From: Rubrivivax sp.
GTDB taxonomy: Bacteria > Pseudomonadota > Gammaproteobacteria > Burkholderiales > Burkholderiaceae_C
Direction: 5' to 3'
DNA length: 64,000 bases
Assembly (NCBI GenBank): GCA_030680415.1
Contig: JAUXVE010000063.1
Span: forward strand, 1 to 64,000
Of the stretch, positions 1 to 4,185 are shown piece after piece. Position 1 is the stretch's first letter. The number at the start of each line of letters is the position of its first letter. The position numbers and the translations under genes are program-made. The notes below the pieces were generated by a model, which made no database searches, had not been told where the DNA came from, and saw only the letters and a program-made list of their open reading frames with translations.

Positions 1-985
1 CCGCCGCCAGCCGCGCGCGCAGGCCGGGGTCGGCCATCAGCTGCGCCAGCGCCGTGCGCAGTGCGATGGCGTCGCCGGGCGGCACGTGCAACCCCGCATC
101 AGCCGGCAACGTCTGCGCCAGGGCGCCGGCGCTGCTGGCCAGCACCGGCAGGCCGAACGCCAGCGCTTCGGCCACCGCCATGCCGTAGCCCTCGTGCAGC
201 GACGGCAACACGAAGACGTCGGCCGCCGCGTACTGAGCCCGCAATGCGGCAGCGTCGACCGCGCCATGCCAGAACACGCGTCCGGCCAGCTCGGCGGCCA
301 TGCTCATGGCGTGCAGCCGTGCGGCCGTCTGCGCATCACGCGTTGCGCTGCCGACGTTGTGCAGCACCCAGTCCTGCCCCGCCAGCCCGGCCAGTGCCTG
401 CAACAGCACGGCGTGGCCCTTGCGCGGTATCAGCGCGGCCACGCACAACAAGCGCACGCGGCCCGTGCCGCCGGTACCGCCGTCGCCACGCGGGGGCAGC
501 ATCGGGTCGGTGCCCGGTTCGACGACGGCGATGCGATCCGGCGGCACTGCCATGGCGGCCACATCCTGCGCCGTGCTGCGGCTGGTCACCACCACCTGCC
601 GCGCGCCCTGAAGGGCCTGTTCTTCACTGCGATGCAAATCGTGGCGCATGGTCTCGTCGAGCCCGGTTTCCATGTGCAGCGGGTGGTGCACCAGCGCCAC
701 CCAGCGCAGCCGTTCGGCGTGGCGCTGCACGAAGCCGGGCAGGGCGCCGAAGGCCAGGCCATCGGCCACCACCAGGCTGCCCGCGGTCAGCGCTTCGACG
801 CAGGTGCGCGTTACGGCCAGCGCCGCTGCGTCGGGCCAGGGCCAGTCGCCGTCCAGCCGGTGGGTCTGGACCGCCCAGCCGGCAGCGCGCAACGCCTGCA
901 CCAGCCGCCGGTCATAGGTGTAGCCGCCGGTGGGCGTATGCCAGTCGCCGGGGACGAGGAAGCAGCAGGCGCGGCGGCCGGGCAT
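1..985 (-). CDS. Glycosyltransferase family 4 (GT-B), partial, runs off the left edge
   Basis: Minus-strand reading from CAT 983-985 gives MPGRRACCFLVPGDWHTPTGGYTYDRRLV...VFVLPSLHEGYGMAVAEALAFGLPVLAS, a typical GT4 C-terminal signature; no stop within window. Confidence 0.85.
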   Translation of the reverse strand, partial: MPGRRACCFLVPGDWHTPTGGYTYDRRLVQALRAAGWAVQTHRLDGDWPWPDAAALAVTRTCVEALTAGSLVVADGLAFGALPGFVQRHAERLRWVALVHHPLHMETGLDETMRHDLHRSEEQALQGARQVVVTSRSTAQDVAAMAVPPDRIAVVEPGTDPMLPPRGDGGTGGTGRVRLLCVAALIPRKGHAVLLQALAGLAGQDWVLHNVGSATRDAQTAARLHAMSMAAELAGRVFWHGAVDAAALRAQYAAADVFVLPSLHEGYGMAVAEALAFGLPVLASSAGALAQTLPADAGLHVPPGDAIALRTALAQLMADPGLRARLAA

Positions 986-1001: not shown

Positions 1002-1436
1002 TCAGGGCCGGGGCTGCACCGGCAAAGCCCCTTCGTAGGCGGCCCAGGCCACGTGCGACTCGTTCAGCGTCACCCGCATCTGTGTCAGCCCGGGTGACGC
1101 GGCCCCCGGCAGCGCATGCGGACCCATGGCGCCGGCGGCAATGCGTGTGGCCACGCGGTCGAAGATCGCGCGCGCCAGGAACTCTGTGGTGGTGTTGTGG
1201 CCGGCGAATTCCGGCACCTCGTCGAGGTTGCGGAAGTTGAGCCTGGCCAGTTCATCGCGCAACACCTGGGTGGCCAGGCCGATGTCGACCACGATGCCGT
1301 CGGCGTCGAGCTCGTCGCGGCGCAACTCGAGGTCGACGACGTAGGTGGCGCCATGCAGACGCTGCGCGGGCCCGAACACCGTGCCGCGCAAGCTGTGGGC
1401 GATCATGACGTGGTCTCTGACGTTGACGGCGTACAT
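1002..1436 (-). CDS. 6-pyruvoyl-tetrahydropterin synthase / 6-carboxytetrahydropterin synthase-like protein (variant)
   Basis: 144 aa ORF with PTPS-like layout ([25 protein letters not shown]); catalytic motifs diverge. Confidence 0.75.
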
Positions 1437-1505: not shown

Positions 1506-2570
<1,065 letters not shown>

Positions 2571-2689
2571 GGTGAGGCCAGTGGAGCACACGATGCAAGG
2601 GCCGGTGCCAGGCGCGACGAGCGCATGGCGGGGCGCAGGGTGAGCGCAATGCAATGCAGCGCTCGCGCAACGATGTTACGGTGCCGCCG

Positions 2690-3505
2690 ATGACGCCACC
2701 GGGCCGCCGCCAGTCCACCCTGTCGGCCACACGGCAACACCTGGCCGGCGCTGGCGCCGGGTCGGCGCTGAGGCGTGATGCGGCGCGAGACCTGTCCGCC
2801 GCGGCTGGCCTGGCCGGGTCGACGGCGGTGGCATTCGCGGCCGCCGGCGGTCTGGGCGCGGACTACGTGCTGAAGGCCCTGCTGCTCTACGCGGCCGGGG
2901 CCTGGCTGGTGTGGCGCGGCCTGGACGACATTGCCGCGCACCCGCACGCGCGCTTCGGTGCCGCCAACCGCGTCACGCTGGCCCGCCTGGTGCTGGCGGC
3001 GTTGCTGGCCGCCGGGGTGGGCGAGCCCGCGCTGCAGCCGCCAGCGTCCGCCGCGGCGGCAGGCTGGTTCGTCGTGGCGGCGGCCGCGCTGGCGGCGCTG
3101 CTCGATGCCGTCGACGGCCCGCTGGCCCGCCGCAGCGGCCTGGCCAGCGTCTTCGGCGCCCGTTTCGACATGGAGACCGACGCCGCCTTGACGCTGGTGC
3201 TGTGCGCGCTGGTGCTGCAGGCGGGCCAGGCCGGCCCCTGGGTGCTGGCATCGGGACTGATGCGCTACGCCTTCGTCGCCGCCGCGCGCCCCTGGCCCTG
3301 GTTGGCCGCTGCGCTGCCGCCAAGTCGGCGCCGCCGGGCCGTGTGCGTGGTGCAGATCAGCACGCTGGTCGTCTGCCTGGCCCCGATCGTCCCGCCGCCG
3401 CTGGCCACGGCGCTGGCTGCGGCCAGCCTGGCCTTGCTGGCCACCTCCTTCGCCATCGACGTGCGCACACTGGCGCGTGCGCGTCGGCCCACCCTGGAGA
3501 CCTGA
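2690..3505 (+). CDS. CDP-alcohol phosphatidyltransferase family membrane protein
   Basis: Exact match to D-x2-DG-x2-AR-x8-G-x3-D-x3-[27 protein letters not shown]; hydrophobic segments; start could be 2654 or 2690. Confidence 0.85.
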
Positions 3506-3507
3506 GC

Positions 3508-4185
3508 ATGCACACCTCACCCTCGTCAACACCACGGATCCGCCTCGACCCGCGCCCGCTGCGGGCCGCACGCCGGCAGGCCGGCGCCGCGCTCGCCAGC
3601 CTGGCCTGCTGCGTCGGCCTGCTGGCGGCCGGGCCGGCGCAGGCGCAGCCGGCCCGCTACGAGATCGACCCGGACCACCTGTCGGTCGGTTTCCTGGTCG
3701 ACCACATCGGCTATGCCAAGGTGCTGGGGATGTTCCGCACCGCGAGCGGCAGCTACCGCTTCGACGAAGACCGCGCCGAGCTGTCCGAGGTGCGCATCGA
3801 GGTCGAGACCGCCAGCGTCTTCAGCAACCACCGCCAACGCGACGAGCACCTGAAGGGGTCCGACTTCCTCAACAGCGCCAAATTCCCGCGCCTGGTGTTC
3901 ACGGCCGCCGCCGCCCGCCGCACGGGCGAGCGCGGCTTCGAGATCAGCGGCCAGCTCGAACTGCTGGGCAAGACGCAGCCGCTGACCTTGCAGGCGACCT
4001 GGAACAAGAGCGCCCAGTCGCCGCTCGGCAGTCTGGGCGGCTTCGGCCGCAAGCCCTACGTGATGGGCGTTTCGGCGCGCGGCAGCTTCAAGCGCAGCGC
4101 CCACGGCATGAGCTACGCGGTGGCCAACGGCTGGGTCGGCGACGAGGTGGCGCTGATCATCGAGTTCGAAGCCGTTCGGCAGTGA
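3508..4185 (+). CDS. YceI family periplasmic protein
   Basis: Signal peptide then [38 protein letters not shown]...KFPRLVFTA, YceI pattern. Confidence 0.88.

Follow-up and report, generated by a model that had tools for sequence, protein, structure and literature searches.

The PTPS-like protein encoded in the window, a 64,000-nucleotide stretch of a Rubrivivax sp. contig, is by its sequence a member of the SCO6650 family and cannot be a conventional PTPS or QueD. It is likely to be a zinc-independent T-fold enzyme of this family whose substrate, a 2-amino-4-oxo-pyrimidine or pterin, derives from GTP and whose pathway is as yet uncharacterised. Since the family has been crystallised, the loss of canonical residues is not peculiar to this genome. 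It was already known, and the gene setting is the new part: The SCO6650 family, whose function has as far as we know been open since the 2008 structure, can now be connected with a conserved gene set in several phyla and on plasmids. Features are compiled in Table 1.

Table 1. Features of the window around the gene for the PTPS-like protein
Feature	Position	Strand	Basis
PTPS-like protein, SCO6650 family, 144 aa	1002..1436	-	ORF call, Pfam, alignments
Residue H14 of the PTPS-like protein	1395-1397	-	
Residue A24	1365-1367	-	
Residue H28	1353-1355	-	
Residue A30	1347-1349	-	
Residues N67-F68	1233-1238	-	
Residue E126	1059-1061	-	
10-residue signature (residues 23-32), compared with KCGRLHGHSF of QueD	1341..1370	-	alignment
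Segment of residues 63-73, Asn67-Phe68 compared with the QueD Asp-His pair	1218..1250	-	alignments
GT4 glycosyltransferase, downstream operon gene, truncated where the contig ends (position 1)	2..985	-	
MDR-type 'zinc-binding' dehydrogenase, upstream operon gene	1506..2654	-	profiles; BchC-like, 46 bits
CDP-alcohol phosphatidyltransferase family protein, transcribed divergently to the operon; conserved cluster gene	2654..3505	+	
YceI-like protein, often a neighbour in proteobacterial clusters	3508..4185	+	

Pfam PTPS is the one clear domain of the protein (80.5 bits, cut-off 22.4). An earlier note on this DNA had placed Ala at the catalytic Cys and at one zinc His, and had found the segment altered where an LDH...LN relay motif is expected. 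Both observations are borne out by alignment with E. coli QueD: Ala24 occupies the position of the catalytic Cys27 and Ala30 that of the zinc ligand His33, and Asn67-Phe68 lie opposite Asp70-His71. An aligned canonical QueD paralogue from another carrier genome places all these residues identically. His14 and His28 correspond to the zinc ligands His16 and His31 of QueD, and Glu126 corresponds to Glu110. We take Cys27 of QueD to be catalytic, His16, His31 and His33 to bind zinc, Asp70-His71 to form a catalytic pair and Glu110 to anchor the pterin by its 2-amino-4-oxo-pyrimidine edge. The window protein is entirely free of Cys and carries A-x3-HGA, so that the motif C-x3-HGH of QueD/PTPS-I is absent. 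PTPS-III keeps HGH and has exchanged the catalytic Cys for Glu; here, Ala24 and HGA are found. Two of the three zinc His and the pterin-anchoring Glu are kept, so a ligand site is probably preserved.

The best sequence match in the PDB is 3D7J, SCO6650 of Streptomyces coelicolor (E 1e-47, residues 1-138). An AlphaFold model computed from a 60-row alignment (mean pLDDT 93) has the PTPS fold, and Foldseek again ranks 3D7J first (TM 0.87/0.93, 60% identity), followed by QueD with about 0.69. Fold matches from BFVD were limited to ordinary QueD relatives of phages. SCO6650, described in 2008 by Spoonamore, Roberts, Heroux and Bandarian, is reportedly a hexameric T-fold protein that is zinc-free and PTPS-inactive and keeps the pterin-binding residues. 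The likeness to SCO6650 comprises 60% identity over the full length, the shared fold and a residue-by-residue alignment including AQRLHGAT. The proteins differ in the phylum of the host. Furthermore, the proteobacterial gene clusters often include RibD_C and their RibA, where present, keeps the switch Tyr (see below); otherwise no clear difference was seen. The earlier note had missed both this crystallised family and the conserved multi-gene cluster. A literature search on SCO6650, SCO6655 and this kind of cluster yielded nothing useful, and we know of no activity or ligand for any family member.

One scan of genome contigs yielded 80 related loci. A family alignment was built from 60 proteins, the window protein and homologues sharing 62-85% identity with it. 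Ala24, Ala30, His14, His28 and Glu126 are invariant in this alignment, as are V6, R7, H9, M11, Q25, G29, T31, D35, R40, D51, N70, L71, D72, N81, T82, T84, E85, S127, H128, Y134 and E135. Eight plasmid homologues with identities down to about 41% likewise keep AQ-x2-HGAT including both Ala residues. This means, Ala24 and Ala30 are neither due to chance nor to sequencing errors. In a tree of 40 family proteins and 10 HGH-type PTPS, the two groups split cleanly (100/100) with a long stem; the root is arbitrary, and the program warned of long branches. The signature-bearing family was found in Proteobacteria, Actinobacteria, Myxococcota and one Gemmatimonadetes MAG. The invariance among homologues, the separate clade and SCO6650 as best solved relative thus identify the window protein as a new member of a known family, and the loss of the Cys and zinc-His residues is, as read from these alignments, a family trait and no local decay. 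Strict conservation over several phyla shows that the protein has a function under selection, i.e. that its PTPS fold is neofunctionalised.

The earlier note had offered a neofunctionalised or a non-catalytic PTPS-fold protein as readings. A non-catalytic T-fold protein is the main rival of the enzyme favoured here, but less likely. It would bind a ligand, either pterin-like or a pyrimidine, or serve as a structural subunit of another cluster enzyme, e.g. the dehydrogenase or the glycosyltransferase, and would have no chemistry of its own. Such a role would fit the tight adjacency of the PTPS-like gene to the dehydrogenase and glycosyltransferase genes, and also a protein that keeps the pterin Glu but has lost Cys, one zinc His and the Asp-His pair. 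However, beyond the ligand Glu, the polar residues R7, H9, H14, Q25, H28, D35, R40, D51, N70, D72, E85, H128, Y134 and E135 are invariant, too. They seem excessive for a pure scaffold, although a tight ligand site combined with an interface could account for them.

A working QueD or PTPS with substitute residues is highly improbable. The protein does share with QueD/PTPS-I (E. coli QueD, 4NTK, 4NTM, 3QN0) the T-fold, the Pfam PTPS membership, two zinc His, the Glu corresponding to Glu110 and conserved D54 and E86 positions, and public records call relatives 6-carboxytetrahydropterin synthase. In contrast, Cys27, His33, Asp70 and His71 of QueD are missing from it and the identity amounts to 27%. 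The QueD equivalog model scores 44.1 bits, below its cut-off of 89.25. No queuosine genes were seen near the window gene, which is the sole PTPS gene of its genome, and QueC was not found in this genome (96% complete), so the window protein is not its QueD. In addition, an HGH-type PTPS is present in 9 of the 16 other carrier genomes examined, i.e. both types coexist there, and SCO6650 itself is reportedly devoid of zinc and PTPS activity. QueD with substitute residues was hence ruled out by the motif, the profile score, the lack of Cys and the lack of QueC. PTPS-II (biopterin) and PTPS-III (folate, Plasmodium type) belong to the same fold family; they differ from the window protein, which is without the HGH zinc triad and has Ala, neither Cys nor Glu, at the catalytic position. 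In the solved chains, 4ntk, the Cys-to-Ala variant of E. coli QueD, reads KAGRLHGHSF, and 4ntm reads KCGRLHGHSF. Plasmid relatives are annotated as 6-carboxytetrahydropterin synthase with a queuosine GO term in RefSeq records; their residues do not support this, and the annotation needs correcting.

That the gene is a functionless, decaying relic of a QueD paralogue deserves hardly any weight: Of 60 sampled genomes related to that of the window, just 2 have it, and its cluster is truncated in this assembly, but the truncation falls at the contig end, the ORF is intact, the gene order is conserved, and the identical, invariant substitutions in homologues from Proteobacteria, Actinobacteria, Myxococcota and the Gemmatimonadetes MAG rule decay out. 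In the order of a Nocardiopsis carrier, 77 of 201 genomes matched the gene at E <1e-50. The patchy distribution together with the plasmid copies points to horizontal movement of the cluster as a functional unit. The same core set is found on annotated plasmids of Streptomyces, Thiodictyon, Agrobacterium, Microbacterium and Palleronia; on the Palleronia plasmid, the GT4 gene is located several genes away from the PTPS-like gene. A search of plasmid DNA with the window gave no match. A homologue with the A24/A30 signature on a Streptomyces anthocyanicus plasmid (8001-8426) is located outside such a cluster, next to MEKHLA and cupin genes.

To define the cluster, neighbouring frames conserved between loci were grouped and converted into profiles, and their identities were checked with Pfam and NCBIfam. 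Gene order was counted at the 88 loci where the PTPS-like gene is flanked by at least 4 kb on either side; they derive mostly from Proteobacteria, plus Actinobacteria and one myxobacterium, and as many of them are from Variovorax, the counts are not independent. On the same strand, the MDR dehydrogenase gene is directly upstream at 83 of the 88 loci, the GT4 gene directly downstream at 84, and a methyltransferase gene follows next at 83. A CDP-alcohol phosphatidyltransferase is encoded nearby at 62 loci, RibD_C at 58, a creatininase homologue at 27 and RibA at 26; at least one of RibA, RibD_C and creatininase occurs at 76 loci. Profile searches of the window's assembly, where the contig ends inside the glycosyltransferase gene, did not reveal a methyltransferase, a Creatininase, a second RibA (GTP_cyclohydro2) or RibD_C belonging to the cluster. 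Their sole match was a RibD/RibA pair on another contig (C141), which we read as riboflavin genes. The start codon of the window's dehydrogenase gene is uncertain, and similarity to the family begins about 40 residues into the frame. Classical MDR enzymes carry a catalytic Cys at a site where this dehydrogenase family has a conserved SRGTE. Two proteins of the cluster, the PTPS-like protein and the MDR dehydrogenase, seem to have lost zinc-site residues.

RibA, the GTP cyclohydrolase II homologue, provides a hint at the chemistry of the pathway. SCO6655, such a homologue from S. coelicolor studied by Spoonamore in 2006, is said to release formylated FAPy since Met replaces Tyr. Wherever the motif is readable, RibA of the actinobacterial clusters has His, Met, Gln, Asn or Leu as its switch residue and never Tyr. 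In a comparison within 10 actinobacterial genomes, again with a readable motif, the cluster copy carries His, Met or Leu, whereas the housekeeping RibA has Tyr in all 10. This non-Tyr switch predicts that the actinobacterial cluster RibA would make a formyl-retaining GTP product. It also offers a testable marker: In actinobacterial clusters, the partner GTP cyclohydrolase always has a residue other than Tyr at the switch, and every housekeeping copy checked has Tyr. A creatininase homologue is nearly always present in the actinobacterial clusters; RibD_C was not found in those sampled from the Nocardiopsis order. In the Proteobacteria, Tyr is retained in the cluster RibA, a creatininase homologue still adjoins, and the clusters often encode a RibD_C reductase as well. 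BrbF, a member of the creatininase family, deformylates FAPy in Sinorhizobium and Brucella (PMC9478397). The cluster contains genes homologous to those of this FAPy formamidase and of GTP cyclohydrolase II, whose products would be partners in the pathway. More distant creatininase homologues did not complement (PMC9478397), which counts against the FAPy idea. Moreover, this idea does not explain the creatininase homologue beside a Tyr-type proteobacterial RibA.

For the zinc-independent enzyme that we favour, we infer substrate class, order of steps and product as follows. The pathway would start with the GTP cyclohydrolase II homologue, which would yield FAPy in Actinobacteria or the diamine in Proteobacteria. 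The creatininase-family hydrolase, possibly a FAPy formamidase, would act next; Proteobacteria and some others would also employ a RibD_C reductase. Then the PTPS-like protein, the MDR dehydrogenase, the GT4 glycosyltransferase, the methyltransferase and the CDP-alcohol phosphatidyltransferase would act. The PTPS-like protein itself has given up the zinc, Cys and Asp-His chemistry of PTPS and QueD and keeps the pterin-anchoring Glu. Other zinc-free T-fold enzymes rely on acid-base residues. By analogy, one might guess at a tautomerisation, an Amadori-type rearrangement or a ring closure, for instance. The presence of GT4, methyltransferase and CDP-alcohol phosphatidyltransferase suggests that the product is glycosylated, methylated and possibly membrane-linked. 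Tentatively, the family might even mark an undescribed and widespread pathway that leads from GTP to an aminopyrimidine or pteridine which is glycosylated, methylated and possibly anchored to a lipid. The zinc-free PTPS fold would then catalyse a new reaction, and a dedicated GTP cyclohydrolase II of Actinobacteria would have been retuned so that the formyl group is kept.

Two further variants of the PTPS fold were observed. Several beta-proteobacterial carrier genomes encode a second PTPS subfamily with the motif (S/G)S-x-R-(I/L)HGH(T/S)Y. It keeps the zinc HGH and LDH, has Ser at the Cys position, and its pterin Glu is apparently replaced, mostly by Arg. In a Competibacteraceae MAG (C246:15136-16161) and a Thiohalocapsa genome (C13:12431-13486), three consecutive PTPS domain matches are located in one open frame of about 370-380 aa.
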